Below, in pieces: positions 6,843 to 39,094 of a stretch of 41,294 nucleotides of DNA. The DNA is from an uncultured Methylocystaceae bacterium (GTDB taxonomy: Bacteria > Pseudomonadota > Alphaproteobacteria > Rhizobiales > Beijerinckiaceae). Both the position numbers and the translations under genes were made by a program. The notes beneath the pieces were generated by a model. That model searched no databases. It worked only from the letters and a program-made list of their open reading frames with translations, and had not been told where the DNA came from. The stretch is taken from the NCBI GenBank assembly GCA_903870245.1, contig CAIQCB010000063.1, forward strand, positions 1 to 41,294, read 5' to 3'. Within the stretch, counting starts at the first letter, position 1, and each line of letters opens with the position of its first letter.

Positions 6843-6875
6843 GAACGTATTCCTCTGGCGTTGCAACGGCTGGTT

Positions 6876-6903: not shown

Positions 6904-6927
6904 GTTTGTTAATTGCGTTCAATTCGC

Positions 6928-8684: not shown

Positions 8685-8694
8685 TTTAGTTTCC

Positions 8695-12019: not shown

Positions 12020-12047
12020 AGGCTTGCGGGATATTCGCCGCAAGCCT
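12020..12047 (-). terminator. Terminator of the HdeA-like gene
   Basis: A perfect 10-bp inverted repeat (12020-12029 and 12038-12047, 8-base loop) is followed on the minus strand by TTTTTACTTTT. It lies just after the stop at 12060. Confidence 0.88.
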
Positions 12048-12059
12048 CATATTAGAGGA

Positions 12060-12398: not shown

Positions 12399-12787
12399 TT
12401 GACTTTCTCCCCGGTTATTTCGTCACAAAATTGGAACGAAATATACAATTTCAAATATTACTTTTTTATTTGAGATAAATCAACTCAGCGGTATGAGGTA
12501 TATTTAAGCAAGAAATAATTATTAATTCGAAATCTTTTTCTTAAAAAATCTTGATATGCGCTCGGTTCAAATCCAGATAAGGTTGCCTTAGGTCAATCGT
12601 CTCTTCATCATCTCGGTTATCCTGTTATGGCCGGCTATCGCAGGGGGATGTTACAGCCTTGAGCTTTTTTCATTGCAACCCAATGTAGCCCATAGGAGCT
12701 TGATACGCTGTACAAGCCCACAATATCTCTGATTGAAACAAGCCTGCATATCTCTGATTGAAGCGCTCTCATGTGTTCATTAGGCGC
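12399..12787. other. Gene-free gap with a 15-bp direct repeat
   Basis: This AT-rich stretch separates the HdeA-like gene from the arabinose operon and should hold the HdeA promoter. ATATCTCTGATTGAA occurs twice, at 12723-12737 and 12748-12762, 25 bases apart. No coding region or clear terminator for the operon is seen. Confidence 0.6.
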
Positions 12788-14299: not shown

Positions 14300-15036
14300 A
14301 GTTTGATCCTCTTGAATAAATTTTCTGGGATTAATTTAATACAAAGCATTATAAAAAACCAAAAGTACGGAACATAGATTTCCTCAGAGAATCCTCCGTC
14401 AATGCTTCTTGTTATAATGGCGGCAGCATCGGCAGGCTTGACCCACAGAAATCCCTTACTAAATCCCTCAGTCATTCGCGTATCTATGAACCCTGGCTTT
14501 AAAGTCACCACTGAAACACCAGATTTTTGGAGGCGTTGCCGTAGCCCAGAGGTATAGGCGGTGACCATCGCTTTAGCGCTTCCATAGACGTAATTGCTGG
14601 ACCGACCTCTATCTCCTGCGACTGAGGATATGACCGCTATCGTTCCCTTTCGTTGGGCCTCTAAACGATTTGCGACGAGCGTCAGCAATGCAATAACAGA
14701 CAATCCGTTAGTCTCGATCTCACGCAGAGTTAACGCAACGCTTTGCTCGCAGGCTTTCTGATCTGAAAGCGTGCCATGCGCGATGAGCACTGTGTCCAAT
14801 CCTCCAAGCCCTCTCTCGGCTGCATCAAGCATTGCTTGATGAGAATTAAAATCACAGAGGTCTATTACCAGTTTTCCTACCTTTGTAGCTCCTCTCAAAC
14901 TTAGGTCCGATACAATACAATCTAACCTCTCTGGATTACGACCAACAAGAAAGAATTCATGTCCTTGAGTCGCCCATATTCTAGCGCAATGCTCGGCTAT
15001 TGTAGATGTCGCCCCTATGATAAGTATCTTACTCAT
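14296..15036 (-). CDS. DprE2-like short-chain reductase (decaprenyl-phosphoryl-2-keto-ribose reductase)
   Basis: The 246-residue product is a classical short-chain dehydrogenase: nucleotide-binding IIGATSTIAEHCA near the start, ISSVAGDRGR around the catalytic serine, and Y151/K155 in YGSAK. The C-terminal YFWFFIMLCIKLIPENLF helix is hydrophobic and could associate with membrane, like DprE2 of mycobacteria. In that pathway DprE2 reduces the 2-keto intermediate to decaprenyl-phosphoryl-D-arabinose, completing the 2' epimerization begun by DprE1. It overlaps the DprE1-like gene upstream and the membrane protein gene downstream, each by ATGA. The assignment rests on family resemblance plus this neighbourhood. 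Confidence 0.88.
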   Translation of the reverse strand: MSKILIIGATSTIAEHCARIWATQGHEFFLVGRNPERLDCIVSDLSLRGATKVGKLVIDLCDFNSHQAMLDAAERGLGGLDTVLIAHGTLSDQKACEQSVALTLREIETNGLSVIALLTLVANRLEAQRKGTIAVISSVAGDRGRSSNYVYGSAKAMVTAYTSGLRQRLQKSGVSVVTLKPGFIDTRMTEGFSKGFLWVKPADAAAIITRSIDGGFSEEIYVPYFWFFIMLCIKLIPENLFKRIKL

Positions 15037-16331
15037 AACAAACCTAGTCTGACTGATTGAGCCGATGAGAACTTGCCGATAGCGCCGTATTTTTGCCGAA
15101 CACTTTCAAATGTTTCCCATCGAGGGTACGTGCGCCTGAACGTGTTAGAAGTCATGCGCGCATCTTTTGTCAGGTAAATTCTACCACCCATGTCTATGAC
15201 GAGCTCGTCGAGCACATTCAACAAATCGATTGTTTTCTGTGAAACTTTGAAGTCTAAGGCCAGAGTATATCCACTGAATGGAAACGATAAAAGATTATCA
15301 TTCTCTCCGCCGAAAAGCTTTATCACGGCCAAAAACGATCCTTCTCCAAGATATGCAATTCGGCCTAGTAACTTGCGCATATTGTCTGCGCCATTCTGTT
15401 TGGGTATTACAAACTGGTATTGAATAAAACCACTATGGCCATACATCCGATTCCAATTATCGATTTTATCTAGCGGATAAAAGTAGTCAAACAGCCCGAC
15501 GAGCTTTTCATCACCTTGCTTGGCTTTGCTATAATACAGGCTGTTAAACGCTTTAATGCTCCATCGATTGAGCAAGAAGCCTGGCGCATCAATAGGAATT
15601 TTAAAACGTTGCCTGGAATCAATTTGCACCCCCCCCTTTTTGGCATGGTCACCAAGCAGGAGAACTGAACGTCCCAACTCTCTTTCCGGGGCCAAGCAAT
15701 CTACCCAGGCGACAGAATAGGGTACGTCGGCGTTCTCTTCGAATAACTCAAAAAGCTCTTCAAGGTTTGAGGCTTTTATCGTTTTTTGTTTTACCAAACC
15801 AGATTTTACTGGCGCCAGTTGTATTTTAGCTGATAGAATGACCCCTGTTAAGCCCATGCCGCCACAGGTTGAGTAGAACAGATCCGCGTATTGAGATGCT
15901 GAAGCTGTTACAATCTCTCCATTCCCGAGCATAATCTCAATTTCTTTAACATGCTCACCGAACGTTCCGACGAGGTGATGGTTCTTGCCGTGTACATCGC
16001 TTGCAATTGAACCACCAACCGTTGCGAAGCTTGTGCCAGGGGTAACAGGTAACCACCAGCCGCGCGGAACAAACACCTTAGTAATTTCGCGCAATTGCAC
16101 GCCGGCGTTTACAGTCAAAACGCCAGCAGCAGGATCAAAACCCGCAAATTGGTCAAACCATCGCATTTCCATAGTATTGATTGGGTTGATGGCGCTGTCG
16201 CCATAGGCTCGGCCGCTGCCGCGGGCGATAGTCTGTCCTATAGCCAAAAGTTTCGAAATTTCTTTGCGTGTGTGAGGGCGACTGACATTACTATCTATTT
16301 TGGGATATCTGCCCCAGCCAGAGACGATCAT
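15033..16331 (-). CDS. DprE1-like FAD oxidoreductase (decaprenyl-phosphoryl-ribose 2'-oxidase)
   Basis: The 432-residue product aligns by eye along its length with mycobacterial DprE1. Shared landmarks are the N-terminal GWGRYP, the FAD-binding IARGSGRAYGD, PGTSFATVGGSIASDVHGKNHH with H114 (H132 in M. tuberculosis), FYPLDKIDNWNRMYG, FIQYQFVIP, and LTKDARMT with K389 (K418). DprE1 oxidises the 2'-hydroxyl of decaprenyl-phosphoryl-ribose. The position equivalent to Cys387, the residue trapped by benzothiazinones, is alanine (A358 in YTLALDF). It overlaps its neighbours by 4 bases on both sides. The enzyme has no signal peptide; the mycobacterial one is membrane-associated. Confidence 0.9.
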   Translation of the reverse strand: MIVSGWGRYPKIDSNVSRPHTRKEISKLLAIGQTIARGSGRAYGDSAINPINTMEMRWFDQFAGFDPAAGVLTVNAGVQLREITKVFVPRGWWLPVTPGTSFATVGGSIASDVHGKNHHLVGTFGEHVKEIEIMLGNGEIVTASASQYADLFYSTCGGMGLTGVILSAKIQLAPVKSGLVKQKTIKASNLEELFELFEENADVPYSVAWVDCLAPERELGRSVLLLGDHAKKGGVQIDSRQRFKIPIDAPGFLLNRWSIKAFNSLYYSKAKQGDEKLVGLFDYFYPLDKIDNWNRMYGHSGFIQYQFVIPKQNGADNMRKLLGRIAYLGEGSFLAVIKLFGGENDNLLSFPFSGYTLALDFKVSQKTIDLLNVLDELVIDMGGRIYLTKDARMTSNTFRRTYPRWETFESVRQKYGAIGKFSSAQSVRLGLL

Positions 16332-16756
16332 GCTGAAGACTCTTCATGTAATATTTTGTCAGTGAATACAAATCTGCGATCAAGTTGATACTTTATCACA
16401 TAGCCAATAGAGAGGCCGATAATAGCTCCAGCTTCACGCATTGGTTCTGTCCGCCACAGAAGCCAAAACCCCGTTTCAAAACCCCAAAAAATCAAAGTCG
16501 TAAAGAGGCCCATGAGCACATAGCGCGTGAATTTCCGAGTGTGAGACCCAACACCAGATGCATGGTCTTTGAAGATCCACCGCTTGTCCAACGTATATTT
16601 TACCACAAGCCCCACCCCGGCGCCTGCCGAAATTGCTAGATAAAATGCATTTCCATCCGGCTTAAATAGAAATACACCTCGCTGCATGAAAAGATTTGCC
16701 GCTGTCGCGACAATCCCAAAAAATGCGTATTTTAAAACCACGAAACGGAGCCTCAT
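16328..16756 (-). CDS. GtrA-family membrane protein
   Basis: The 142-residue product has four predicted membrane helices and the family's internal symmetry: VVKYTLDKRWIF after helix 2 and VIKYQLDRRFVF after helix 4. GtrA-like proteins are thought to help move polyprenyl-phosphate-linked sugars across the inner membrane, and a family member (Rv3789) sits next to dprE1 in Mycobacterium tuberculosis. Here it lies between the UbiA and DprE1-like genes, with ATGA overlaps at both ends. Flipping of decaprenyl-phosphoryl-arabinose or anchoring of the pathway enzymes are the likely roles; which one is not settled for the family. Confidence 0.85.
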   Translation of the reverse strand: MRLRFVVLKYAFFGIVATAANLFMQRGVFLFKPDGNAFYLAISAGAGVGLVVKYTLDKRWIFKDHASGVGSHTRKFTRYVLMGLFTTLIFWGFETGFWLLWRTEPMREAGAIIGLSIGYVIKYQLDRRFVFTDKILHEESSA

Positions 16757-17700
16757 GGAAGGATGGCTCCAACGAGAAAAAATGAAATTAAAGCCAAACA
16801 GTAATAACTGACCCGGTCTTTTAAAGCGTAGACAATAGGGTCGTCGTGCATGGCGCCTCTATGCGTGACAAATACCATACGCGTCGTCCAGTAGAGAAGG
16901 ACAGGACAAACACCCCAAATAGCATGAGGCCTTTTGTACAAAGTAACGACCTCTGGCGAATTAATATATAGCGCCATTATCAGCACAGAGACATAGCCTG
17001 CAGACAATGCCATATTGCTGATTATAGGTAGGTCATTAATATGATAGCCTCGCCCGTGAGCTTTCACCTCTCCAGACGCAACACCATCAACTAGTTCTGA
17101 CTGTCGCTTTACGGCGGCAAGAGAAAGAAAAAAGAAAATGGAAAAAGCCAGCAGCCACTCTGATAAGGGTACGCCAGCAACAACTCCTCCTGCTACGATG
17201 CGAACTGTATAAAGACCGGCGAGAACGCATATATCAATGACAAGCTTCCTTTTAAGATACATCGAGTAGGCAGTGGATATGAGAAAATAGCACAGCAGAA
17301 TTGCTGCGAGAGGTAACCCAACATATAGTGCAATACTGAAAGCGACCGCGATCAATCCCCCGGCAATCCATATCCCTTGCGTCGCGGCTAATGCGCCTGA
17401 AGCAAAGGGTCTGTAGCGTTTTCTAGGATGAGCTCGATCCGCTTCGATATCGACAAGGTCATTTATGACATATACGCCGGATGCGAGCACACTAAAGGCG
17501 ATGAAAGCCAAGAGTGAATTCCATACATGGTCGAAACCAAATCTATGGGCAGTCAATATCGGTACAAAAATAAGTATATTCTTTAGCCATTGATGCGGCC
17601 TCAATACTTTGACGTACGGAAAATTGATCAACGCAACAGGTACGCCTTTGACGTTAAGATTTTGACTCATTTTATGATTCATGTTTGGTTGACAAAGCAA
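16753..17700 (-). CDS. UbiA-family decaprenyl-phosphate phosphoribosyltransferase (Rv3806c/NoeC-like)
   Basis: The 315-residue product is a UbiA-type membrane prenyltransferase with about eight or nine helices. The first aspartate motif is N80-D81-L-V-D84-I-E-A-D88, and YSMYLKRK lies in the second conserved loop. The RPHQWLKN motif (34-41) is typical of the branch that joins phosphoribosyl pyrophosphate to decaprenyl phosphate, committing it to arabinose donor synthesis. It is the first gene of the five-gene run. The start is uncertain: TTG 17700, ATG 17682 or ATG 17670, none with a clear ribosome binding site. A phosphatase for the 5-phosphoribosyl product (Rv3807c in mycobacteria) is not present in the window. 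Confidence 0.88.
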   Translation of the reverse strand: MLCQPNMNHKMSQNLNVKGVPVALINFPYVKVLRPHQWLKNILIFVPILTAHRFGFDHVWNSLLAFIAFSVLASGVYVINDLVDIEADRAHPRKRYRPFASGALAATQGIWIAGGLIAVAFSIALYVGLPLAAILLCYFLISTAYSMYLKRKLVIDICVLAGLYTVRIVAGGVVAGVPLSEWLLAFSIFFFLSLAAVKRQSELVDGVASGEVKAHGRGYHINDLPIISNMALSAGYVSVLIMALYINSPEVVTLYKRPHAIWGVCPVLLYWTTRMVFVTHRGAMHDDPIVYALKDRVSYYCLALISFFLVGAILP

Positions 17701-17725
17701 GCAGGGCTATTTGACCTAGCACCGG

Positions 17726-18205
17726 TCATTCGGACAACGAGTTAAGCACCTCCCACATTTCACTCGAACTCGCTAGAGCTGATATAGGGCTCCCGCGCGT
17801 ATGTTCGCATAGCGTGGTCAGGGTCCTATAAGCGCCGGTTGCTACAGGCTCTGTCGCAGCCCGGAGGCGAACAATAGCATCATTTAATTCAGTTATATTC
17901 AACTTCCCGGCGCTGTCGAGACCGACTTTACGATCATCATCATTATCAGCTGCGCATGTTGTGAAAAGATTGCGTTTCGCCTCAAGACTGAGACGGCCAG
18001 CCTGTCTGTCTCGCTGGCGGAAGTTGATGATAACGTCATCCTGTGGCTTGCGGAAATCGAAGTACCGAACTGCGGCGGCGCTTACGATTGCGCCTTCCAT
18101 TCCCTGCCATGCGTGCTCGCACAGCAATGCTGCAAGATGTCGGGCTGCTACGAGCCCTTCGAAAGTGAATTCGTCGCTTGCAGCAAATTCGGGAGATTGG
18201 GTCAA
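17726..18205 (-). CDS. Hypothetical protein of unknown function
   Basis: The 159-residue product starts at TTG 18205, which has a near-perfect AGGAGGAA 4 bases upstream. It is mostly helical and acidic, with no signal peptide or membrane segment. It contains a central Arg/Asp-rich portion (NFRQRDRQAGRLSLEAKRNLF) that I cannot place in a family. It ends 25 bases before the UbiA gene starts on the same strand, so it may be the leading gene of that operon. Its composition is closer to the GC-rich backbone than to the AT-rich operon. No function is proposed. Confidence 0.55.
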   Translation of the reverse strand: MTQSPEFAASDEFTFEGLVAARHLAALLCEHAWQGMEGAIVSAAAVRYFDFRKPQDDVIINFRQRDRQAGRLSLEAKRNLFTTCAADNDDDRKVGLDSAGKLNITELNDAIVRLRAATEPVATGAYRTLTTLCEHTRGSPISALASSSEMWEVLNSLSE

Positions 18206-18819: not shown

Positions 18820-18904
18820 TGGTGCCCAGGAGAGGACTCGAACCTCCACGGCTTTCACCACTGGTACCTGAAACCAGCGCGTCTACCAATTCCGCCACCT
18901 GGGC
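18820..18904 (-). tRNA. tRNA-Leu (anticodon CAG)
   Basis: The 85-base gene folds into a standard class II tRNA with an acceptor stem GCCCAGG/CCTGGGC, D-arm GGCGGAATTGGTAGAC, anticodon loop TTCAGGT reading CAG, a variable arm, T loop TTCGAGT, and an encoded CCA end. It decodes CUG. Its 3' end faces the AT-rich region to the left, as expected if the tRNA served as an integration site. Confidence 0.96.
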
Positions 18905-21994: not shown

Positions 21995-23242
21995 TTAAGA
22001 TAGTAACTTCGGGGACAGCATTACGCGTCCCGCACCCTGTCGATCTTTTGGCAGATCGAGACTTTCCGCGTGATCCAGAAGTTCTGCTTCGAGCTGCGCA
22101 AGAGTCATGTCTGGCCAACGTTCGAGAAGGAGGCACGCCAGTCCCGTTACGATCGGCGCGGCAAGGGAGGTGCCGCTCCAGGCGGCGAATTCTCCTGACT
22201 TCGTGCAGGTGGTGACAGCCTCGCCCGGCGCCACAAGCTTGGGCGCGGTGACTGTCAGCCCTTCGAGAATAACGTTTCCACCGCCGCTGCGCGACCATAC
22301 GCCTCCAGAGGAGTTGCATGCGCCAACCGAGATGACGTTAGGGTAATTGCCCGGACTGCGCGTCTCGTCCTTCCCTTCGTTGCCGATGGCGCTTACCGTC
22401 AGCACATGCACCCGACGCAGCACCTCGGTCATGATCTGCATGTTGGGATGGAACCCTGACTGGCCTGCTGAAATATTCACGACCGAAATATTCGTTTGAG
22501 ACGCCACCCATTCGAGCGCCAGAACATATCCGCTTAAAGTCCCATATGATCCGGGAAGCATGATGACATTAACGAGTGACGCCCCCGGCGCCACGCCGAC
22601 GGTGCGGCCGGCGATCAAGCCGGCCACCATGGTTCCGTGACCATGGGTGTCTTTCGTTTGATCAAGTTTTCTGGTGCGCCAACCGTCGAGATCAAGTTCT
22701 TGCGCGTCGACGACGCGATCGGCGAGTTCCGGCACGTCGGCGACGCCAGTATCGAGAACGGCCGCAGTCACGCCATGGCCTGTGCCGGCGAAGCCGGCCT
22801 TGCGCGCGGCTTCAAGGCCTATTTGCCTCAGGTGCCAGAGCGTTTCGCCGTCGCCAACCGTGGGCTGAGCGGCGGCGATATCTCCCGATGCGGGCAGGGG
22901 AGCGATCAGATTCATCGAGTCGTCCTGGACCAGAACCGCCTCGGTGAGTTCGTCGCCAAGGTTGCTTGCGCTGGTCTCATCAGCCTCAATGACTGTAATC
23001 CCTGTGGAGATCATCTGCCGCTCGGGACTGGCAAGGACGCGCAGGATCCGTTGTGCGCCAGCGCTCTTCAGGCGACGCGTTTCGCGCTCGATAGCGTTCT
23101 TTATGGTCGAGTGCGCCTGATCATGGCTGACGCGAAATTCGTGGAGCTTTTCCCGCATGCGGGTGCGAAGGGCGGGTTGCGGAGCGACGCCGCCGAATTC
23201 GAGCGCCGCCAGATCCACTCTGGGTATTATCAGATAGCGCAT
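21995..23242 (-). CDS. S8-family serine protease (subtilase) without signal peptide
   Basis: The 415-residue product has a complete subtilisin triad: D164 in AAVLDTGVA, H202 in HGHGTMVAG and S359 in WSGTSLAAP, with the oxyanion asparagine N288 in AIGNEG. The first 130 residues form a helical N-terminal region of unknown type, rich in Arg/Glu, where a propeptide would normally sit. No signal peptide or membrane segment is seen, so the enzyme is probably cytosolic or released by another route. It is the last of three minus-strand genes (patatin, peptidoglycan-hydrolase-ankyrin protein, subtilase); the gap to the preceding gene is 54 bases. GGGAG lies 11 bases before the ATG. Substrate is unknown. 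Confidence 0.92.
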   Translation of the reverse strand: MRYLIIPRVDLAALEFGGVAPQPALRTRMREKLHEFRVSHDQAHSTIKNAIERETRRLKSAGAQRILRVLASPERQMISTGITVIEADETSASNLGDELTEAVLVQDDSMNLIAPLPASGDIAAAQPTVGDGETLWHLRQIGLEAARKAGFAGTGHGVTAAVLDTGVADVPELADRVVDAQELDLDGWRTRKLDQTKDTHGHGTMVAGLIAGRTVGVAPGASLVNVIMLPGSYGTLSGYVLALEWVASQTNISVVNISAGQSGFHPNMQIMTEVLRRVHVLTVSAIGNEGKDETRSPGNYPNVISVGACNSSGGVWSRSGGGNVILEGLTVTAPKLVAPGEAVTTCTKSGEFAAWSGTSLAAPIVTGLACLLLERWPDMTLAQLEAELLDHAESLDLPKDRQGAGRVMLSPKLLS

Positions 23243-23296
23243 TGTTCGATTGTCTCCCCGTCGGGACCGACAAACACGGTTCGTTAGTCCGGCGCT

Positions 23297-26200
23297 TTAT
23301 CGTGACCTCGCCGACAACAACGCAATGACGCTCTCGTAGTCGAACAAACGTTCCGGGTCGAGCGGTTCAAAATCGCGGCCCTGACGCGCGCAATCGAGGG
23401 CGTCGGAGCCGGGCGTATAGACGACATCGAAGGCGTCTTCGTCGTCGGGCGGCATGGGCTGAATCCTCGTCTTCAGAAGGGGATCAGCGCCGAGCGCGAG
23501 CAAACGCGCAACGGACTCCCTCGCGCCCTCATAAGCGGCCCGGTGCAGCGGCGTCATTCCGGCGCCATCGAAGGCGTCAATATCGGCGCCGAGTTCGCGC
23601 AGGCGATTGATCGCCCCGGGGCTATCAAGCGTAGCGGCCCAGCCCATCGGCGACAATCGCCCGTCCTTGTCGGCCACATCGACGTCGCGCTCTTTCAGAA
23701 GAGCGGCGATGCGATCGAGTTGGGCGATGATTGGAGCGCGGACGTCCTGTTCCGAGATCGCCGTCGCCGACCGCCAGGCGCTCACCCAGGGAATCCACAA
23801 ATTCTCACCGCGACGACCGCGCAGGCCCTTGATGTTAACTCCTTTGGCGACGGCTTTCTCGATCAGGCCCGGCTCCGCCATGCGGAGGTCGGCGCTAGCC
23901 TGCATCGAATCAGCGAGTGCGCCGAAGAGTTCGGCCTCGCTCGCCTTGTCGATTGTATGCTCCGTCGCCAGAATGTCCGCAGCCGTCGCCATCTCCGCCT
24001 CGGCGAAAACGCGCCGCCGCTCGCTCGCCGAGAGCGCCCCGCCGCCAGCGATGGCGATGTCGGTCTCGCGCGCCGGACCCGGCTCGCCGACGATCTGCAC
24101 GAACGCATTCTCGATGGGCTGGTTTTTGGCGTCGGGAAAGCGATCTCCAAGCGTCTTTTTGAGAAGATCAATGAGGGCGATGACGCGGCCCCGGCTATCC
24201 TGCCAATCGAGTTTAAATGCGACGTCGTTGAAGGGCTGCGAAAGATTGATGCAACCCACGCTCCAGACATAGTTTTGAGCGGGATGAATGAGAATTCCCG
24301 CACGCGATCCGGTTCCGCCGAGGCGCAGCGACGGCCTCGGCGCCGCACCGACGCTCCTATCTTCAGTGTATCCGTGCGTCTCATACATCGTGACGCCGTT
24401 GAGTTGCCGGCTCCCGTGGTGCGTATAAAGCGAGTAGACTCCAGCTTCGATCCGACGAGCGAAGCGACGGCCTTCAAGACTGTTGTCGCCGGGACCTTGC
24501 CTTTCAACCGCCATCCCGGAGGCGCCGTCGATTGGTTGGCCGTCAAGCAGAACCTGATAGCGACTGACGGTTCGATCATAGGCTGCGCCCTGCCGTCTCT
24601 CGGACCGAATGCGTTCGATCCTGACGACGACGCGCCCATCCTGCGCCGCTGGAGAGAGGGGTTTCGGCTCCGGGCCTTGACCTGTATTTGAAACAGGCGT
24701 CGTCGCAGCCGGTGTGAGGAGTCTGGCGTAGCGGATTTTCAAAGCTCCGCTGTAGCCAGCATCTTCGGGACGGTATGCGCTTGCCAGGAACTCAATAAAT
24801 TTTTCAGCGTCCGCGATGTGTTGACGCCATGCAGTCAATGCGTCGGCCCGATCGAGATAACGGCCATAACCGTCGACGAATTTTTGCAGTGTCAGAAAGC
24901 GGCAAAAGTCGCCTTTATCCGGGCGTGTGGGGTGGGGGACCCTGACAGCCAGATCTCCCATGAAATCGACCCATGGCACACCGGCAAAATTATAATGCAG
25001 TCGCGCCAGTTCCGAAGCGCCCCATGCGCTCTCGATGCCCCATTGCGCAGCAAGCACAGCGATCAGCGGCTTCAGCTCTTGAGGAAGCGACGTTTCGACG
25101 AGAAGCGCACGAAACTCGGGCGTGCTTTGAGGCGGAAGCGCCGAAAGATTGAGGGACGATTGCGTCGCGACGGCGCCGGTTGACGCGCCGTCGGCGGGAA
25201 CCGCGACGATCGCCGGCGCCGCCCCGGACGACGATGCCGGATTGAGCGCGCCGTTGGAAGCGCCGACGCCGAGTTCGCGCAAGGTGTCGGCGATAACGAT
25301 GACGCGCTCGGCATAGCCGGCTTTCTGCGCCCAGCCATGGTTGGCGAGGTGGCGTATAAAGGCTGCGGGCTCATGCGCAACCTCTCGCCAGCCGGCGTAA
25401 GGCGTGCGCTCCACAAAAAGCCAGTATCCCTTGATGAAATTGCTTATGGCGGCGAAGCGAAGATAGATATCCGACCCGTCATGGGCTTGATAAACGACTT
25501 TTGTCGCAGGCGCCTCCGAAATCACCCTCGCGACCTCGGAAATGGCTTTCATCCCCGCGTAATTGAAGTGCAGGCGCGCCAGCTCGCTCTTGCCCCAGTT
25601 CGACTCCTCAGCCCATTGCGCCAGTGTGATTAGTTTCAGGCGTTCGGCGACCTCTGGGGAGAGCCCGGGTAGATTCAGCGGCGTGGACTGATAGGTCGAC
25701 CAAAGCTCACGAAACTCCGGCGTCTGGATGGCGTCGGCGGCGGCTTCGAGGCGCGGCGAGACGATCGGGTTGTTTGAAGCGATAGCGCCAGGATTCGAGC
25801 CCGATCCGGTCTCGCTTTCCGCCAGTGGCGCGCCGGCGAAGCTGGCGAAGGCGGCGACAATTCGCTCCGCCAGCGCCTGCTTCCTGTCGATCGCCATCCG
25901 GCCTTCGTTCAGGTTATGCGCGAAAAAAGGCTCGATCAACGCCGAGGGGAAAATCTGCGTCACATTCGCTTGTCCCCGACTATAACCGTTATTGGGACCG
26001 GGAATGTGAATCCCGAGATTTTCGCGCGGCCCCCGGCGATCATAAAGATCGACGAGGACATCCAGCAGCATTTGCGCCCAGCGTCGCGAATCGTCGGCTC
26101 CGTAAAGCACGAGCGATCCCTTGACGTCAGGATTGTCCGCCGGTCTTGCAACCGAATTGAAGTGAAGCTCCACGGTCGCTGTCGGCTTCCAGGCGCGAAC

Positions 26201-26650
26201 GGCGTCGTAGGACGCGGCGACGTCCTTGCCGTCGCGTGTGAACACCTCGCAGCGTATGCCGCGACTTTGCGCGTATTTTCTGGCGCGTAGCGCCAGGTCC
26301 TTGTTCCAGCCGTATTCGTGGCGGTCGTCGTCGGGAAAGGGTGGGCTCGCCCCGGCGTAGCCCGGACTTCTGGCCGTATGTCCGACCATGAGCGCCAGAC
26401 CGCCGGTCTCGTCTGCAAGAATATCGCTCTGTCTTTCGGGGCGCGGGACGCGATTGATCTCGGCCTCCTCCGGGTGCAGGGCGTCCTGAATTTCATCGAG
26501 CTGTTCCTGGAGAACGATGGACAATTCCTCGCGAGAGGGACCGTCCATGGCACCGCTGCCGGATGTGCGCAGATCGTCCGGTTCAAGCTCTTCAATACGC
26601 CGCTGCGTCTCGGCGAGCCGATCAAGCGCGGCTTTTAAATCGAAGGTCAT
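23297..26650 (-). CDS. Multidomain protein: amidase, two glucosaminidase-like domains, DUF5675-like, ankyrin repeats
   Basis: Domains in the 1117 residues, by eye: a charged helical or coiled-coil segment (1-75). An N-acetylmuramoyl-L-alanine amidase of the Amidase_3 type (86-272), with H91 in MVGHT, E112, H163 in VELHFNS and E240 in ALIEPFFAHN. Two FlgJ-like glucosaminidase-type domains (305-460 and 510-645), each with a WxxExxWGxSELARLHxNxAG core. A DUF5675 or L,D-transpeptidase-like domain (675-810) with H789 and C800 in WSVGCINLS. A helical region. Two to three ankyrin repeats (980-1112), clearest in GMTPLHRAAYEGARESVARLL. Such an enzyme could cut both peptide stems and glycan strands of peptidoglycan. 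There is no signal peptide. ATG 26650 has GGGAG 7 bases upstream. It lies between patatin and subtilase genes. Confidence 0.88.
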   Translation of the reverse strand: MTFDLKAALDRLAETQRRIEELEPDDLRTSGSGAMDGPSREELSIVLQEQLDEIQDALHPEEAEINRVPRPERQSDILADETGGLALMVGHTARSPGYAGASPPFPDDDRHEYGWNKDLALRARKYAQSRGIRCEVFTRDGKDVAASYDAVRAWKPTATVELHFNSVARPADNPDVKGSLVLYGADDSRRWAQMLLDVLVDLYDRRGPRENLGIHIPGPNNGYSRGQANVTQIFPSALIEPFFAHNLNEGRMAIDRKQALAERIVAAFASFAGAPLAESETGSGSNPGAIASNNPIVSPRLEAAADAIQTPEFRELWSTYQSTPLNLPGLSPEVAERLKLITLAQWAEESNWGKSELARLHFNYAGMKAISEVARVISEAPATKVVYQAHDGSDIYLRFAAISNFIKGYWLFVERTPYAGWREVAHEPAAFIRHLANHGWAQKAGYAERVIVIADTLRELGVGASNGALNPASSSGAAPAIVAVPADGASTGAVATQSSLNLSALPPQSTPEFRALLVETSLPQELKPLIAVLAAQWGIESAWGASELARLHYNFAGVPWVDFMGDLAVRVPHPTRPDKGDFCRFLTLQKFVDGYGRYLDRADALTAWRQHIADAEKFIEFLASAYRPEDAGYSGALKIRYARLLTPAATTPVSNTGQGPEPKPLSPAAQDGRVVVRIERIRSERRQGAAYDRTVSRYQVLLDGQPIDGASGMAVERQGPGDNSLEGRRFARRIEAGVYSLYTHHGSRQLNGVTMYETHGYTEDRSVGAAPRPSLRLGGTGSRAGILIHPAQNYVWSVGCINLSQPFNDVAFKLDWQDSRGRVIALIDLLKKTLGDRFPDAKNQPIENAFVQIVGEPGPARETDIAIAGGGALSASERRRVFAEAEMATAADILATEHTIDKASEAELFGALADSMQASADLRMAEPGLIEKAVAKGVNIKGLRGRRGENLWIPWVSAWRSATAISEQDVRAPIIAQLDRIAALLKERDVDVADKDGRLSPMGWAATLDSPGAINRLRELGADIDAFDGAGMTPLHRAAYEGARESVARLLALGADPLLKTRIQPMPPDDEDAFDVVYTPGSDALDCARQGRDFEPLDPERLFDYESVIALLSARSR

Positions 26651-26758
26651 GTCCGAACTCCCAGACCAAACTGTCGCCCTTGATTATTTGGAAATCAGCG
26701 CGGTTAACACGATGGCGTGCGGAGAGGCGTTCGCGCGCTGGCGACGCTAGAGAGATGA

Positions 26759-26809
26759 CAGGCGCGCGCGTTGTAATCAGGCGCGCGCGTCGTCGTCAGG
26801 CGTCCGCTC
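26759..26809. repeat. Degenerate 19-bp tandem repeat
   Basis: CAGGCGCGCGCGT recurs at 26759-26771 and 26778-26790 with a 19-base period, and a third partial copy (CAGGCGTCCGCT) starts at 26797. It fills the gap between the patatin stop and the next gene on the minus strand. Confidence 0.75.
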
Positions 26810-26819
26810 AAAGGCGGTT

Positions 26820-27926
26820 TTAAAAGGTATGGGCGGGTACGGGCCATTCCGTCGCCTTGGGGATGGGCAGTTTGGCGTTGACGCGTAAGGAAATATCGCA
26901 AAGAGCGTAGCCCCAATTGATGATATGGCCCTGTGTTTGGGCGTCGAAGGCGTTCAGGCGCGTGGGTATGTTCTCGAGAGCCATCGTCACGGCCGTGTCA
27001 TTGGTCATGCCCGACGCGCCCTGGAAATTAGATAGACGCGTGCCGATGCCCCAAAAGGCTCCGAATTTGCGCTTGGCCTCGAATTCCTCGATCAGCCACC
27101 TTTTTCGCAAGGCGCGCGTCTGGTCGATCAGGATGTCTCTCACGCGGCCAAGCTGCATAAGGTAATCCTCTGGGGCCGATTCGACGATTTCAAAGGGCGC
27201 TCCCGCGTCACTGACCAGGGCGATATCGACATTATCGACGAGGGACTCCAGCCCCATGTTGTCGTATACGCCGCCGTCAGCAAGCGCGATGTGTTGACGC
27301 AGGGCGCGAATATTGGGGAGCGCCTCGCCGCCTTCCCAATCATCAGGATCAGTTGTCAGTTTCACGGGTGAAAAGACCGGCGGAAATGCGCTCGATGCCG
27401 CAACCGCGAAAGCAAGCGAGACATCCGTCTTTGCAGACGTTCCGAGCATCCAGTCCGCGATCATGTCCTGCCTGAAGCGGAAGCTGCGTCCAGTTTGCAG
27501 ATTGGTCGCGTAGATAATGAACTTCGGCTGGCCCTTGGCGGCGTCGGGCAGTCCGTTCTTGATCGTAGCGCCTTTGAATAGCGCGTCATCGTAAGAGTCG
27601 GCGAGGTAGTCTCCAGCGGTCTTGAAAGGATTCACGCCTCCCCAGAGGATCACGCTTTGGTCGATCGAACGCGAGCAGAAATCGGTAATGGGCTTCGCGA
27701 CGATCTCATAAAAATTTCCGGCGCGACCATTGTCGAATTTCAACTGGCTCCAGCGATGCGCCAAAACACCCGCGATGATTGATCCGCCCGAGACGCTTGT
27801 CACGCGGTCGAGATTGCCGAGGAGCCCGGCGTCATTGAGTCGCCACAATGAGCCCAATCCAAACAGGGTGGCGCGAAATCCTCCGCCCGAAAGGGCTATT
27901 CCCAGAGTTTTTCCGTTGATGGCCAT
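26820..27926 (-). CDS. Patatin-like phospholipase
   Basis: The 368-residue product has the patatin layout: the oxyanion loop SGGGFRA (13-19), the nucleophile S46 in TSVSGGS, and the catalytic aspartate D217 in ALADGGVYDN. Such enzymes hydrolyse acyl esters of phospholipids with a Ser-Asp dyad. No signal peptide or transmembrane helix is present, so it acts from the cytosol or is delivered by another system. ATG 27926 has GGGAG 7 bases upstream and removes 14 unneeded residues from a longer frame. It is the first of three minus-strand genes, with 169 bases before the next, and its promoter faces the metallopeptidase gene across a 573-base divergent gap. Confidence 0.93.
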   Translation of the reverse strand: MAINGKTLGIALSGGGFRATLFGLGSLWRLNDAGLLGNLDRVTSVSGGSIIAGVLAHRWSQLKFDNGRAGNFYEIVAKPITDFCSRSIDQSVILWGGVNPFKTAGDYLADSYDDALFKGATIKNGLPDAAKGQPKFIIYATNLQTGRSFRFRQDMIADWMLGTSAKTDVSLAFAVAASSAFPPVFSPVKLTTDPDDWEGGEALPNIRALRQHIALADGGVYDNMGLESLVDNVDIALVSDAGAPFEIVESAPEDYLMQLGRVRDILIDQTRALRKRWLIEEFEAKRKFGAFWGIGTRLSNFQGASGMTNDTAVTMALENIPTRLNAFDAQTQGHIINWGYALCDISLRVNAKLPIPKATEWPVPAHTF

Positions 27927-28499
27927 TGGCGATCTCCCAAGTGCAAAAAAATGAAACATAACGATCAATTTTTTTGATTATTGAGTCGAAGGACTGGTTA
28001 GTCAACTGTGGCGCGATGCAATTGGCGTGAGTGTCTTTTGATGAAGGTGATGTAACAATGCCGCGCCGTTTACTGCAGGCATGCGGATCATTAAAGGCAA
28101 TATGCAAAATTCAGGGGGAAACATTTTCCAGGCTATGGCGCGCTTTTTAAGTGTTGCGCTCCATGCGGAGGAATTGCTTCTGCCTCGATCGCCTGTCTGC
28201 AACAGCGATGAAAAAAACCTGCGCAAGATGATTTTTCTCATACGAGGCCCCGGCCTGAGCCGATGATCGCCATTCCTGTCTGTGGCTTCGAGTAATGCTG
28301 CATTCAGGGGCCTGCTAACCGAGATGCTCTACAGGAGCCGGACAAGAATAATTCTTGCCTTCCCGGCGGCAAGCACAGATAATATTTGGTAATCGAGGCA
28401 TCGGTCCGCATTGATGCGCCGGCAACAAAATGCACGCTGAGCGCTACATTAGAGCGCTACATTTCGCCCCGAAACGCTAATTGTGAGGAGGCAGCAGGC
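27927..28499. promoter_or_regulatory. Divergent control region of the hydrolase locus
   Basis: No gene is supported here. It separates the patatin and metallopeptidase start codons, so it should drive both gene sets. Visible structure: an AT-rich inverted repeat ATCAA...TTGAT at 27964-27978 near the patatin start, and a 13-bp direct tandem repeat at 28439-28464 just before the metallopeptidase ribosome binding site. Confidence 0.6.
28439..28464. repeat. 13-bp tandem repeat before the metallopeptidase gene
   Basis: GAGCGCTACATT is repeated at 28439-28450 and 28452-28463, a 13-base period. The pair ends about 20 bases before the GAGGAGG ribosome binding site of the gene at 28500, a position suited to an operator or a leader element. 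Confidence 0.7.
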
Positions 28500-30356
28500 A
28501 TGAAATACCCACCTCCCTCTACCCGGCGACTTCGCGTATATGCATTCGATCCACAATCAGCGATCATGCTCGGCACAGTCGGCTACGCCTATGCAACCAT
28601 CGATCTGCCATGGGAACAAGTCTGGGAGCAGCCACTTGAGCGAGGCCCGGTCAACGAATACTTCGAAGTCATCGATATTGATCCTGCCAGTAAACAATTC
28701 TATGATGCGGTGGATTTGAATGATAAATATCTTCTGGCCCAAAACGGATTGGCGCCGTCTGAAGGCAACCCCCAATTCCATCAGCAAATGGTCTTCGCTG
28801 TTGCAATGAAAGTCGTGCGATTATTTGAACGCGCGCTGGGAAGAAAAATATTATGGGCCCCGGTCTGGAACAGGGAAACCGGAACCTATGAGGCGGTAAA
28901 AAGACTGCGCATCTACCCCCACGCCATCCGTGAAGCTAACGCCTACTATAGTTTCGACAAGCATGCTTTACTGTTTGGTTATTTTCGCAGCCAGAACCTA
29001 TTTGCGGGCGCCAGCTGGATATTCACCGCTCTGTCGCATGACATCATTGCGCATGAGACTACTCACGCCGTGCTGGATGGATTGCACCGGCGTTACAAGG
29101 AGGCGACAAGCCCGGATAGTCGAGCTTTTCACGAAGCCTTCGCGGATATTGTGGCCCTCTTCTCTCATTTTACGCTAACCGAGGCCGTTTATGCGCATAT
29201 TCAGGAAAAAGGCGGCGATCTTGACAGCGAAAGCCTGCTGAGCGGCCTGGCGCGCCAATTCGCCGCTGGAACCTCGGGCCACGGAGCTCTCCGGCAATAT
29301 ATTGACAAGCAACCAGATCCAGAACTGCTCGCCAATACGCTAGAGTGTCACGACCGCGGAGCCATACTGGTTGCCGCTGTATTCGACGCCTTCTTGCAAA
29401 TCTACAAGACACGTACCGATGATCTTTTGCGTATCGGCAAGGTCGAGCGTGGTCAGGGAAAGCGTCTGGACTCGGATCTCGCCCGGCGGCTGACCGATGA
29501 GGCGACCAAAACCGCTGAACATGTCTTGCGCATGTGTATCCGCGCCATGGATTATTTGCCGCCCGTAGATGTTCGCTTCGGAGAGTTTTTACGCGCAATC
29601 ATCACCGCTGATGCGGATCTCGTTCCCGAAGACACCCGGAATTACCGTATCGCCTTTTCGGAGGCTTTCCTGCGGCGCGGAATTACGGCGGGCAACTGTC
29701 TGTCTACATCGCCCGAAAGTCTTCTGTGGGATAGTCCCGAGCAGTTGTTGGGCCAGGATGATCTCTCCAAGGATTTTCGAGATTTGAATTTGAGTCTGGA
29801 GCCGCAATACGACCGTGATGCGATCATCCATCAGGCGGAGGAGTTACGAAAGCAAGTATGGCGCTGGCTCGTGCTGCCGGACAAAAAGGATATTGCGATC
29901 GATTTGCAATGGGAAAAGGCGCTCGGCGTCTATTTCGCTCTACGAGAAAACGCTCCCAAATCAATCGCTCAGGCAGAGGGATTCCCCAAAGTAGAAGTGC
30001 ACAGCGTACGGGTAACGCGCCGCGCTGGTCCCGATGGTCAGGATTTACGTCAGCTCGTGATTGAAGTGACACAAAGACGACGGGGATATTTCGACCCGGA
30101 GCAACAAAAAAAGGCGGATAGGGGGGAGCCTGTTGGCAGGGAGGACTTCAATTTCCGTGGCGGCGCGACGCTTATCATCGATTTGCGCGACAGACATTTG
30201 AGGTTTGTGATCAGAAAGCGAATCGACGATCCCGAGCGGCTCAACGAACAAAGAGCCTATCTGCAACAGCCGGGCGGAGCCGCCTTCACCTATATTCCGG
30301 CAGCAACGGGCGCAGCGGCGCGTGAGCCCTTCGCCATGGCGCATCGCGGTGAATAG
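28500..30356 (+). CDS. HExxH zinc metallopeptidase, gluzincin-like
   Basis: The 618-residue product carries H185-E-T-T-H189 in DIIAHETTHAVLDGLH and, 23 residues later, E212 in FHEAFADIVALF. This is the zinc-site arrangement of gluzincins such as thermolysin-like peptidases. About 140 residues before the motif and 400 after it do not match a family I can name. No signal peptide, propeptide or membrane segment is seen, unlike secreted M4 enzymes. The C-terminal part contains an acidic, beta-rich segment. ATG 28500 has GAGGAGG 8 bases upstream; longer in-frame starts lack one. The MBL-fold gene begins 9 bases after its stop, so the two form an operon. Confidence 0.85.
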   Translation: MKYPPPSTRRLRVYAFDPQSAIMLGTVGYAYATIDLPWEQVWEQPLERGPVNEYFEVIDIDPASKQFYDAVDLNDKYLLAQNGLAPSEGNPQFHQQMVFAVAMKVVRLFERALGRKILWAPVWNRETGTYEAVKRLRIYPHAIREANAYYSFDKHALLFGYFRSQNLFAGASWIFTALSHDIIAHETTHAVLDGLHRRYKEATSPDSRAFHEAFADIVALFSHFTLTEAVYAHIQEKGGDLDSESLLSGLARQFAAGTSGHGALRQYIDKQPDPELLANTLECHDRGAILVAAVFDAFLQIYKTRTDDLLRIGKVERGQGKRLDSDLARRLTDEATKTAEHVLRMCIRAMDYLPPVDVRFGEFLRAIITADADLVPEDTRNYRIAFSEAFLRRGITAGNCLSTSPESLLWDSPEQLLGQDDLSKDFRDLNLSLEPQYDRDAIIHQAEELRKQVWRWLVLPDKKDIAIDLQWEKALGVYFALRENAPKSIAQAEGFPKVEVHSVRVTRRAGPDGQDLRQLVIEVTQRRRGYFDPEQQKKADRGEPVGREDFNFRGGATLIIDLRDRHLRFVIRKRIDDPERLNEQRAYLQQPGGAAFTYIPAATGAAAREPFAMAHRGE

Positions 30357-30365
30357 GAGCAAGTT

Positions 30366-32033
30366 ATGGCCGACAGGGAAAATCCCCGACCAAGAGCAAA
30401 TAAAAAAACAGAAAAGCCCGCGCAGGAAAGTTCACGGGAGAAGAGCACTGCAAAGGGCGGTCGAACCACAGCCAGCGTCAGAAAAAAGGCGGCGACAGAG
30501 CGGGAGAAACCCGCGAGGAGCATGGTCGCCATCCGCATGTATCGCGGGATACTTGGCGATTTCTTTTTCATCAGACACAGCCTCGACGACAAAAAGGTCA
30601 AGCCGTTCAAAATGCTGATCGATTGCGGCGTTCTGCAGAGAATAGGCTCGGAGGAAAAGAAGCCGACGACGGCTCTAGGCAAGGAAAGAATTATCGCTGG
30701 CGTCAAAAATCTTATTGGGGAGTTTGGTTCTGATTTTGATGTCGTTGTTGTCACTCACGAACATTATGATCACCTTTCTGGTTTCATTCACGCCAGGGAT
30801 ATTTTCGACTCTCTCGAACTCCGTAACTTATGGGTCGCGTGGACCGAGGACCGGAGCGACGCTCTGGCCAACGCCTATCGAGACAAGAAGAATCGGGCGG
30901 TCGCAGCGCTCACTGCATTGGTCGACAGTCCGGCGCTCAAAGACACGGAGAAGATGAACACTGTTCGGGATCTGATGCAGTTTTATGGTCCGCCAGGAAA
31001 TGTCGGGAGCGGCGTCGGCATGGTTGCCGACAACGGAGCGCTTTCCGGCAATGCGAGCTGCGAGGCGGTGATCGATTGGCTCAAGCAGCGTGCCGGAGCC
31101 ACAAATACGTCCTATCTGAAGCCGGGAGAAGTTCACAAATGGGGCGTAGGCAATACGTTGCGGGCATATGTTCTCGGACCGCCACGCGATGATGATCGGC
31201 TGCGCAAGCTGGATCCGTCCGGCGAGGGTAAGCGGGAAGTTTATCTTGCAAAAGGGGAGGATGTCGCCGCCGTAAGCAGCCTCGCCGCCGTTCATGCTGA
31301 TCTTGAGGGAGCTTCTGCAGGCAGCGATCAACCATTCAGTCTACCGTATCGACGCGAATATTTTCCCGGCAAGTTTGCTGCCGGCAACTCTGACGATATA
31401 TTGTCGAGCGATCCTATAGTAAAAAAATACGAGCAAATTCCAGCCAGTGAGCGCATTGATGAGGAATGGCTTGGCAGCGCTGAGTCGCTCGCCCTGAAGA
31501 TCGACGGCGATGTAAATAACACCTCGCTTGTTCTGGCGCTTGAATTGCCAGATCGTGAAATCCTGCTCTTCGCCGCCGATGCTCAGGTCGGCAACTGGTT
31601 ATCATGGAGAGATCAAGACTATCCAGCCGATGATGTCGTCAACACGGAGACTCTTTCGATAGATCGCCTGCTCTCGCGCACCATTTTATACAAGGTAGGC
31701 CATCATGCGAGCCATAATGCGACGTTGAGAGAGGGCGGTCTGGAATTGATGACAGACCCGAGACTCTGCGCAATGATACCGCTCGTCCAAAAAGTCGCCA
31801 GTGAACAAAAAACCAAAAGCGCTCCAAAGGGATGGCAGATGCCCTATGAAAATCTGGATAAGCGACTCAAAGAGCGCACGAGAGGAAGGATTGTAAGAGG
31901 AGATGGGGATGTGAATGAGGAAACGACGGCATTCAAGGGCTCGGTCTTCAATGTGAGTTACGGCCCGGATACGAAAACAAAAGATCCTCTGTGGGTAGAA
32001 CTGACATACGAGCAAAAGAATAATGCAATTTGA
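30366..32033 (+). CDS. Metallo-beta-lactamase-fold hydrolase with basic N-terminal tail
   Basis: The 555-residue product opens with about 52 Lys/Arg-rich, probably disordered residues. The MBL fold follows: the metal motif H131-E-H133-Y-D135-H136 in VVTHEHYDHLSGF, D405 in LFAADAQVGNW, and H446/H447/H450 in YKVGHHASHNAT. The last signature resembles ComEC/Rec2-type MBL domains, which act on nucleic acids, but there are no membrane helices here. Between the motifs lies an insertion of about 230 residues. AGGAG lies 6 bases before the ATG, and the metallopeptidase stop is 9 bases upstream. A nuclease or phosphodiesterase activity is inference; other MBL hydrolase activities are possible. Confidence 0.88.
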   Translation: MADRENPRPRANKKTEKPAQESSREKSTAKGGRTTASVRKKAATEREKPARSMVAIRMYRGILGDFFFIRHSLDDKKVKPFKMLIDCGVLQRIGSEEKKPTTALGKERIIAGVKNLIGEFGSDFDVVVVTHEHYDHLSGFIHARDIFDSLELRNLWVAWTEDRSDALANAYRDKKNRAVAALTALVDSPALKDTEKMNTVRDLMQFYGPPGNVGSGVGMVADNGALSGNASCEAVIDWLKQRAGATNTSYLKPGEVHKWGVGNTLRAYVLGPPRDDDRLRKLDPSGEGKREVYLAKGEDVAAVSSLAAVHADLEGASAGSDQPFSLPYRREYFPGKFAAGNSDDILSSDPIVKKYEQIPASERIDEEWLGSAESLALKIDGDVNNTSLVLALELPDREILLFAADAQVGNWLSWRDQDYPADDVVNTETLSIDRLLSRTILYKVGHHASHNATLREGGLELMTDPRLCAMIPLVQKVASEQKTKSAPKGWQMPYENLDKRLKERTRGRIVRGDGDVNEETTAFKGSVFNVSYGPDTKTKDPLWVELTYEQKNNAI

Positions 32034-37367: not shown

Positions 37368-37676
37368 TCAATGCTTCGCCGTCAGGTCGCTCTCGTGAAT
37401 AGCGCGCGGGTCGTCGGGTCGAGTGATCCCGGACAGGATCAAGTCGACGCTGGGCATGATGTTTGGGTCGATTGCGGATATCTCGAAAACCCGTTTCAGC
37501 CGGTCGACGATCTCCGCGTCGCGCGCCGCGATGTCTTGCGCGATGGCTTGCACGATCTTGATATTCGCAACGGTCATGCGGTGGTTTTGCAGGCTCATTT
37601 CCGCCAGCGAATGACAAAGGCGCGAAAGGGTTTGAATGTCCGGCGCGTCGCCGGGATAGTCAAAAATCTTAAACAT
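37368..37676 (-). CDS. Hypothetical prophage protein
   Basis: The 102-residue product is predicted mostly helical (LSRLCHSLAEMSLQNHRMTVANIKIVQAIAQ, given in part) and may dimerise. ATG 37676 has AAAGG about 8-10 bases upstream and overlaps the stop of the terminase small subunit gene by 8 bases. A 186-base gap follows. No family is recognised. Confidence 0.55.
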   Translation of the reverse strand: MFKIFDYPGDAPDIQTLSRLCHSLAEMSLQNHRMTVANIKIVQAIAQDIAARDAEIVDRLKRVFEISAIDPNIMPSVDLILSGITRPDDPRAIHESDLTAKH

Positions 37677-38166
37677 CGGCTGCGCCTTTCTCATTCTCAA
37701 AACCGTCTGCGAGTTCGGTCAATGCGTCGCGGATAAGCCTGTCCAGCACGTCAATCTCGGCCCGGCTCATGGCAGGCATGGCGGCGGCGGCCTGTGTCGG
37801 AATCGCCAGCATTTTTTGCCGGATGCTCGCGCATACGCCGGACCATCGATCTTGAACGATTGCGGCCTCGATCAGCTCGCCGCGTGCTAACTGGTTTTTG
37901 AGCGCATGGCCGTCGGCTTGCTCTTTCGCCAGCCGGGCGCGTTCGGCCGTCAGGCTTTCGACAGCCTCATGTCCGCCCCGGCCCGATGCGGTCTCGCGTA
38001 GGTGTTCGATCAGGTTCCGTGTCGACGCTTTCAACAGATAACGGCCGCGACCGGATTTAACCGCGATGCCGCGCTCGGCATAGCCGCGCACGGTCCTTTC
38101 GTCGCAAGCGAAGACGCTGGCCAGCGTCGCCACGTCCACAAGGATGTCATCATCTTTAGGCTTCAA
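37669..38166 (-). CDS. Nu1-like phage terminase small subunit
   Basis: The 165-residue product has a MerR-type winged HTH at its start (LVDVATLASVFACDERTVRGYAERGIAV, then a RGRYLLKAS wing), as in Nu1 of phage lambda, which binds the cos site for DNA packaging. The middle is helical and the C-terminal part (DRWSGVCASIRQKMLAIPTQAA) matches the usual small-terminase layout. It starts at TTG 38166, with AGGGGGAA 10 bases upstream. No large subunit gene lies downstream, where it would normally be. It follows the prohead protease gene after a 280-base gap. Confidence 0.75.
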   Translation of the reverse strand: MKPKDDDILVDVATLASVFACDERTVRGYAERGIAVKSGRGRYLLKASTRNLIEHLRETASGRGGHEAVESLTAERARLAKEQADGHALKNQLARGELIEAAIVQDRWSGVCASIRQKMLAIPTQAAAAMPAMSRAEIDVLDRLIRDALTELADGFENEKGAADV

Positions 38167-38415
38167 CGGAAGCGGTTCCCCCTAAGAAAAAAATTGCATA
38201 GCGTCGCGTATTGGGATGCTGTGCCCCGCCCCGCGAGGAAGCGCTCACAGGACCCGCGAGGCCATAGCTGGCGCGTCGTTTTTCCTGCCCTGCTATGCAC
38301 CCAGCGCCATGATGCAAGCCGCATGTGCGGGCGTCTCTGTGAATGTGAGACGGCGGGCGACATGAGCCGCGCCGCCGTCCGCCGGGAATGTCTCCGCCTC
38401 ACGGCCCCGGCTATT

Positions 38416-38441
38416 GCACTCGATTGGAGAAGGTCGAGTGC
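38416..38441 (-). other. Hairpin after the prohead protease gene
   Basis: GCACTCGA (38416-38423) and TCGAGTGC (38434-38441) form a perfect 8-bp stem with a 10-base loop, 6 bases after the protease stop on the minus strand. No T run follows. The 280-base gap 38167-38446 holds no other supported feature. Confidence 0.6.
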
Positions 38442-38446
38442 AGGTC

Positions 38447-39094
38447 TCAATGCGTGGTCCCTGAATAAAATGGAATGTTGCGCGACAGATGTTTGATGGT
38501 CATGCGGGCGCGTGCGGCGTCGACACAATCCGCCGGCAAGGCGCGGGCGGTCGCGGGCGATGTCGTGACGGTCGCGCCGCGCTTCCCGTTCTGTGCTACC
38601 TGCGCTCCGGCGTCTGCGCCGATGGCCACGCCGGAGATTTCAAACGGGGTCCATTTCGTGACGCGATAAATCGGCGGCCCGTCATCCTGCGGGACAATTT
38701 CAACGGCGTCGATTGAATAACCGACAGATACGCCCCGAATGATCCCGTCCTTAATTTTCTGGATGGTGTCTGCGTCGCCGGCAGCTCTGGATAACAGGAC
38801 TTTGGCGACGCCACGTCCGCCGATGATCTTGGCGCTATTGGGAACAATAGACCCCAGCACATGCGACAGGTCGCCGTCGCGGTGCGAGTCGAGGAACGGC
38901 GCGCCGGAATTGAGACGCGATAAGTCACAAGCCTCTGCGCTCATAACCAACAATTCGACATAAATGCCATTCGGCCCCCGGCGTCGAACGGGCGCGCCGG
39001 TCGACCATGTTAATTCGATTGTATGATCTTTCTCGTTGAAACTTGCGGCGCGGAATGATGCGCCGGTCGAGGATGGTGCAAGGTCTATTTTCAT
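38447..39094 (-). CDS. HK97-family prohead serine protease
   Basis: The 215-residue product follows the phage prohead protease pattern: PFLDSHRDGDLSHVLGSI with the catalytic histidine H71, GIIRGVSVGYSID with the catalytic serine S123, and the closing WTPFEISGVAIGADAGAQV. In tailed phages it cleaves scaffold segments from the capsid protein during head maturation. ATG 39094 overlaps the stop of the upstream gene by ATGA. The capsid gene, normally next in line, is absent: the following gene is the terminase small subunit after a gap. Confidence 0.85.
   Translation of the reverse strand: MKIDLAPSSTGASFRAASFNEKDHTIELTWSTGAPVRRRGPNGIYVELLVMSAEACDLSRLNSGAPFLDSHRDGDLSHVLGSIVPNSAKIIGGRGVAKVLLSRAAGDADTIQKIKDGIIRGVSVGYSIDAVEIVPQDDGPPIYRVTKWTPFEISGVAIGADAGAQVAQNGKRGATVTTSPATARALPADCVDAARARMTIKHLSRNIPFYSGTTH

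Follow-up and report, generated by a model that had tools for sequence, protein, structure and literature searches.

The window, a 41,294-nucleotide stretch of contig CAIQCB010000063.1 from an uncultured Methylocystaceae bacterium, contains a divergent locus of five hydrolase genes. On the minus strand lie an S8 subtilase (21995..23242; Pfam E = 1e-38), a peptidoglycan hydrolase (PGH; 23297..26650; Pfam glucosaminidase and ankyrin, 1.5e-20) and a patatin-like phospholipase (26820..27926; Pfam 8e-20; alternative upstream start at TTG 27968). On the plus strand, a thermolysin-like (gluzincin) metallopeptidase with an HExxH motif, hereafter MP (28500..30356; alternative start at TTG 28386), is followed after 9 bases by a ComEC-like metallo-beta-lactamase-fold protein, MBL (30366..32033; Pfam MBL fold, 1e-4). 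All five open reading frames are uninterrupted, in agreement with a preliminary description of the locus as regards their coordinates and divergent arrangement. The shared region of 573 bases that it proposed between the two arms (27927..28499) holds for the starts ATG 27926 (patatin) and ATG 28500 (MP), and presumably carries the promoters of both genes. Because the two arms lie on opposite strands, each could be controlled separately. By eye, we saw no signal peptides or membrane helices in the five proteins, and we identified neither a sensor nor an NTPase in the set.

The prophage reported nearby is represented by genes for a terminase small subunit and a head protease/major head protein at 37669-39109, near the contig end. 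Elsewhere in the window, a type 2A encapsulin shell gene (SrpI-like, E = 4e-107) is found at 4563-11162 together with a class-V aminotransferase, a PALP-family enzyme and a hexapeptide transferase, a group that we take to resemble a cysteine desulfurase encapsulin cluster. The stretch 12000-18000, near tRNA-Leu (18820-18904), is low in GC (0.40-0.47 per kb compared with 0.46-0.66 elsewhere), carries FAD-binding and UbiA genes and is a possible island, and positions 704-4312 encode a 1202-aa protein composed of an alginate-export domain and an outer-membrane beta-barrel domain.

Pfam supports the family assignments of the patatin, the S8 subtilase, the glucosaminidase/ankyrin protein and MBL. 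For MP, the Pfam, NCBIfam and PADLOC models gave no match; its assignment comes from a six-row family profile, which weakly matched the catalytic stretch of thermolysin (E = 0.005). The catalytic residues, described earlier as intact, are indeed kept. In MP, the HExxH motif (H223/E224/H227) and the downstream E250 are invariant in 49 aligned sequences; the metal-site motifs of MBL are likewise invariant among its relatives (see below), and the D/H/S triad of the subtilase can be seen by eye. The patatin motifs GGGxR, SVSGGS and DGG are present in the window and in two relatives, with the first Gly of GxSxG replaced by Ser in all three. The predicted model of MP has a mean pLDDT of 84; residues 1-36 of the reading from TTG 28386 are modeled with low confidence, consistent with a start at ATG 28500. 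PGH had been called an amidase/glucosaminidase/ankyrin protein, and the latter two parts stand, whereas the proposed amidase part has no Pfam match and instead matches a PHROG endolysin profile. Its architecture thus comprises an endolysin-like region (residues 86-285), two glucosaminidase stretches, an unassigned domain (~690-857) and C-terminal ankyrin repeats.

To give an overview of where MP occurs, we counted its relatives in several collections. They were found in 11 of 150 related genomes at E <= 1e-3, six of them below 1e-30 (own genome counted), and in 7 of 398 genomes drawn from the phylum (6 of 397 without the window's own). A scan of species genomes yielded at least 561 stretches encoding an MP relative, and 41 plasmid records carry one, 24 of them predicted to be conjugative. 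The gene is therefore a fairly common element that is poorly annotated, given that no Pfam, NCBIfam or PADLOC model covers it; it is present in several phyla, sparsely and patchily. Phage cargo can be rejected as the rule for MP, with a single relative among 50,697 phage records at E <= 1e-5.

For the gene neighborhood of MP, we analyzed 85 loci, namely 5 from relatives and the best 80 of the 561 stretches from species genomes, a choice that biases the sample toward close relatives. Genes were called with a simple caller of our own, which called no MP gene in one locus (L079), leaving 84 usable loci. An MBL of the same family directly follows MP on the same strand in 79 of these 84 loci and stands two genes downstream in one more. 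The remaining four loci are without it: two stop at a contig end (L047, L053) and two lack MBL (L069, L094). The gap between the two genes is below 100 bp in 63 of the 79 loci. In the phylum draw, MBL lies beside MP in five of the six non-self matches and is absent from the most distant one (L150); there, MBL is split over two open reading frames in L145, and so is MP in L149. Distances between MP sequences correlate with those between their MBLs (r = 0.83, n = 73; 7 of 80 rows dropped), as expected from long co-inheritance, a correlation that by itself does not prove interaction. The conserved unit is thus the MP-MBL pair, which is smaller than the five-gene set.

Among the window's other genes, the patatin often accompanies this pair. 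Of the 84 loci, 30 have it within four genes of MP; it shares the strand of MP in 27 of them and lies directly upstream in that orientation in 18, whereas in the window it is divergent from MP. Its presence and absence require 20 changes on a quick MP tree with very long branches for L014-L016. When the window's proteins were compared with all 85 loci by tblastn, the patatin was found in 31 and MBL in 81, compared with one locus each for the S8 subtilase and PGH. Among the 149 other relatives, the subtilase had no match at E <= 1e-30 and PGH had domain-level matches only, in two. On these counts we reject the five genes as a single conserved set in this order, the co-occurrence that the preliminary description had suggested as a check.

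What recurs beside MP-MBL are enzyme classes. The neighbors include lipases (Tle1-like, LCAT/PGAP1-like and phospholipase D-like), wall enzymes (Amidase_2, alone or fused to a patatin; GH25 with an amidase; Hydrolase_2/CHAP; peptidoglycan-binding/M15), an astacin-like protease, a TGase_elicitor protein and, in opposite orientation, a DUF7379 protein. Fusions also occur: in L081 and on the plasmid L109, MP carries a divergent S8 domain at its N-terminus, with S8-MP fusions annotated on other plasmids as well, and a TPR-S domain is fused to MP in L054. MP open reading frames exceed 1000 aa in 16 of the 80 tree rows, of which L081, the one scanned, holds the S8 domain. Two further observations concern the gene neighbors of MBL proteins. 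A family of ~260 aa follows MBL, ahead of amidase and/or patatin genes, in L035, L044, L052 and L075 (no Pfam match in L044 and L075, the two scanned), and in L159 (6337-8605) a patatin open reading frame overlaps one for an LmuA-type MBL near the contig end.

The window's subtilase and PGH are therefore the variable part of the locus, in which the enzyme classes recur and the same genes do not. The strongest of the rival readings takes MP-MBL, with or without the patatin, as one module and these two genes as a separate accessory set that landed alongside. Close homologs of both are missing from nearly all other MP loci, and the 690-857 domain of PGH also turns up on a Rhizobium plasmid, alongside further hydrolases; the gene table of this plasmid, which is incomplete, lists no MP or MBL. 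However, peptidoglycan hydrolases and S8 proteases as classes do recur with MP-MBL, amidase-patatin and S8-MP fusions included. We regard such independence as a serious possibility that nevertheless falls well short of being the expected outcome, and the window's PGH and subtilase may participate in the module. The earlier proposal of a coordinated lytic, effector or defence module accordingly survives in part: these kinds of hydrolases recur together in a module that is probably of defence type, many genomes link a patatin with MP and MBL, and the pair repeatedly has lipases and peptidoglycan hydrolases for neighbors, but the window's own S8 and PGH genes are not conserved neighbors.

We next consider MBL itself. 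The best PDB matches of a six-row MBL profile are ComEC structures, led by 9ic4 (E = 7.5e-10). The metal-site motifs HxHxDH (131-136), D405 and H446/H447 are invariant in 61 aligned sequences, with the middle letters of HxHxDH varying. From HxHxDH to NNxS, the window's MBL spans 254 residues compared with ~80 in ComEC 9ic4. Both motifs could be located in 72 of the 79 MBLs, where the spacing ranges from 190 to 621 (median 251), so that all 72 measurable proteins carry a large insertion relative to ComEC. Conserved blocks (WTEDP, VLGPP and WRRID) lie within it. The predicted model has a mean pLDDT of 83, with a low-confidence stretch at 291-350 (block means 48-66); blocks below 70 are also found at 211-220 (mean 54), at 421-430, at the N-terminus and in the last five residues. 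At 291-350, every one of the 61 aligned MBLs has a long segment, with 52-112 residues separating the Y293 and R362 columns, and this segment is variable except for P323 (61/61) and F324 (60/61). Columns 214-227, on the other hand, are filled in just 8-29 of the 61 rows, and no conserved candidate cleavage residue was found at 211-227 in this alignment. As the 211-220 stretch is mostly missing from relatives, one loop is general rather than two. Such variability around a single invariant dipeptide is how a protease switch might look; that MP cuts at P323-F324 is a guess.

MBL also shows kinship with defence proteins. The window's MBL matches the PADLOC LmuA model weakly (1.8e-7) and neither the Avs1a nor the DRT MBL model at 0.01, and hhalign places it with LmuA-like MBLs at 96.7%, covering the first, metal-binding half only. 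A relative in L149 matches the PADLOC models more strongly, with LmuA at 1.3e-17, DRT MBL at 1e-9 and Avs1a at 2e-6. At 13816-17477 of that stretch, a caspase-like gene, a 446-aa protein and an LmuA/Avs1a-like MBL stand in a row, in a Canu-like arrangement convergent with an MP-MBL-patatin run. The defence-type reading first offered for the locus drew on its hydrolases, whose classes do recur; the likeness of MBL to known defence MBLs was missing from it.

The surroundings of MP-MBL are partly of the same character. One plasmid carries a CBASS cyclase and DUF1837/DEAD genes beside the pair; we take DUF1837 to be HamA and the DUF1837/DEAD pair thus to be Hachiman. A second plasmid stretch has DUF1837/DEAD, TcmP and restriction genes nearby, and another has CBASS/SAVED genes and a PtuA-like/HNH (Septu-like) pair. 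SIR2 proteins, ubiquitin-type genes, and TIR and TPR-S proteins are also among the neighbors. On a Hymenobacter plasmid, an LmuB-like ATPase (2e-20) lies immediately upstream of MP, and a second such plasmid has an SMC-like ATPase in the same place. To weigh these cases, we read 16 of the 41 MP plasmid records; one (L102) has no annotation and the two from Hymenobacter have no control, leaving 13 that were compared with one antipodal control stretch each. Toxin-antitoxin genes, present in MP and control stretches alike, were excluded from the count. Strict defence names occur within ~8 kb in 5 of 13 MP stretches (L097, L099, L100, L101 and L111) and in 2 of 13 controls (L113, Shedu; L120, SIR2). 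Adding multiubiquitin/ThiF raises the former to 7 of 13 (plus L098 and L108) against 2 of 13 (one-sided Fisher ~0.05, by hand), a comparison that is only suggestive, the list of names having been fixed after the MP stretches were read and the PLSDB gene tables being incomplete. Six of the 13 MP stretches show no defence-type names, ubiquitin-type included, and some plasmid loci sit amid metabolic or unrelated genes.

What we observe directly is a conserved adjacency, intact catalytic motifs, an insertion with a low-confidence loop, a likeness to defence MBLs and a mobile, partly defence-type setting. On this basis, MP-MBL is likely some kind of intracellular conflict module. More specifically, and tentatively, with slightly less than even confidence, we propose that it is a metallopeptidase-gated pro-nuclease module equipped with exchangeable envelope-lysing co-effectors, whose role would probably be abortive defence. 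MBL would be a ComEC-like DNase that a portion of the large insertion holds in an inactive state, and MP its dedicated activating protease. A trigger, probably phage infection perceived through some sensing part, would activate MP, which would cut MBL, perhaps at P323-F324 in the long loop, and so free the DNase. MP may activate the envelope enzymes too; the patatin or its substitutes would attack the inner membrane, PGH could then reach the wall, and the cell would die or arrest ahead of phage release. The order from trigger through MP activation, MBL cutting and DNA degradation to attack on membrane and then wall is conjectured from relatives, and we infer the DNase activity, the proteolytic activation and its site, the trigger, the cell death and the defensive role. 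Weighing against the proposal are the single general loop, the match to LmuA-like MBLs over one half only, the negative result for a sensor or NTPase among the five proteins, and the plasmid stretches free of defence names. The fullest version is more doubtful: MP as an initiator that opens a gated ComEC-like nuclease at the invariant Pro-Phe, with lipase and PGH co-effectors acting in parallel, so that genome and envelope are destroyed from two sides by a widespread immune module in which both the sensors (TPR-S, LmuB-like ATPase) and the effectors can be exchanged.

Two other readings of the locus deserve mention. The hydrolases could form an antibacterial weapon, as effectors freed by lysis or delivered to rivals, with MP and MBL serving as toxins or maturation factors. 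Genes for a Tle1-like lipase, a peptidoglycan amidase, GH25 and Hydrolase_2/CHAP adjoin MP-MBL, and these folds are known antibacterial effectors. However, neither VipB nor a phage-type sheath was found in the window's genome, which is 99.95% complete; this disfavors effectors of a T6SS or contractile injection system in this host, and the lack of signal peptides as judged by eye also speaks against export; we consider a weapon unlikely. Slightly less probable still is a degradative cluster for scavenging dead cells or turning over the cell's own envelope, with no part in immunity, which would suit the fact that every partner is a hydrolase and the metabolic or unrelated surroundings of some plasmid loci, but fits poorly with the patchy (6/397 phylum genomes) and plasmid-borne (41 records) distribution of MP, the resemblance of MBL to defence MBL models and the absence of any secretion sign by eye.

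Returning to the gated pro-nuclease module, we compared it with known systems; a search of the literature, at the level of articles, found no account of an MP-MBL-patatin module. Like T6SS lipase and amidase effectors, the partners of MP-MBL elsewhere include Tle1-like and Amidase_2 folds, but the window's genome has no sheath gene (VipB). With CBASS carrying a patatin effector, which we take to be CapV, the locus shares a presumably cytoplasmic patatin phospholipase, although no CD-NTase cyclase is found among the five proteins and the patatin here accompanies MP-MBL. Lamassu (LmuA-LmuB) likewise has an LmuA-like MBL, and the parallel extends to the Hymenobacter plasmid on which an LmuB-like ATPase gene immediately precedes MP; the window's five proteins, however, include no LmuB SMC-like ATPase.

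The closest parallel is with gated MBL pro-nucleases. According to PMC12799240, such pro-nucleases are found in Lamassu, DRT, AVAST and Hachiman-type systems; those of Hachiman and AVAST are opened by a trypsin-like protease and that of Canu by a caspase, and the active site is blocked by two disordered insertions, each of which contains a conserved residue for cutting. Compared with these pairs (HamM with protease-HamA of Hachiman, Avs1a/Avs1b of AVAST, the Lamassu and DRT versions, and CanABC), the window's locus differs in that MP is thermolysin-like rather than of the trypsin-like or caspase-like classes tested there, that MBL lies downstream of the protease and has one general loop instead of two, that MP-MBL is often accompanied by a lipase or a wall hydrolase, and that the window shows no known sensor. 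If our reading is correct, MP would represent a third protease class, after the trypsin-like and caspase-like ones, that switches gated MBL nucleases, although further protease families are mentioned in PMC12799240 and that of MP may be among them; a membrane- and wall-lysing arm would moreover be attached to such a nuclease, in an element that is common enough for direct testing. In common with the published pairs, the locus has a ComEC-like MBL with an insertion beside a protease gene, intact metal-site motifs, sequence kinship with LmuA (and, in one relative, with Avs1a and DRT MBLs as well), and a setting that is partly defence-type.
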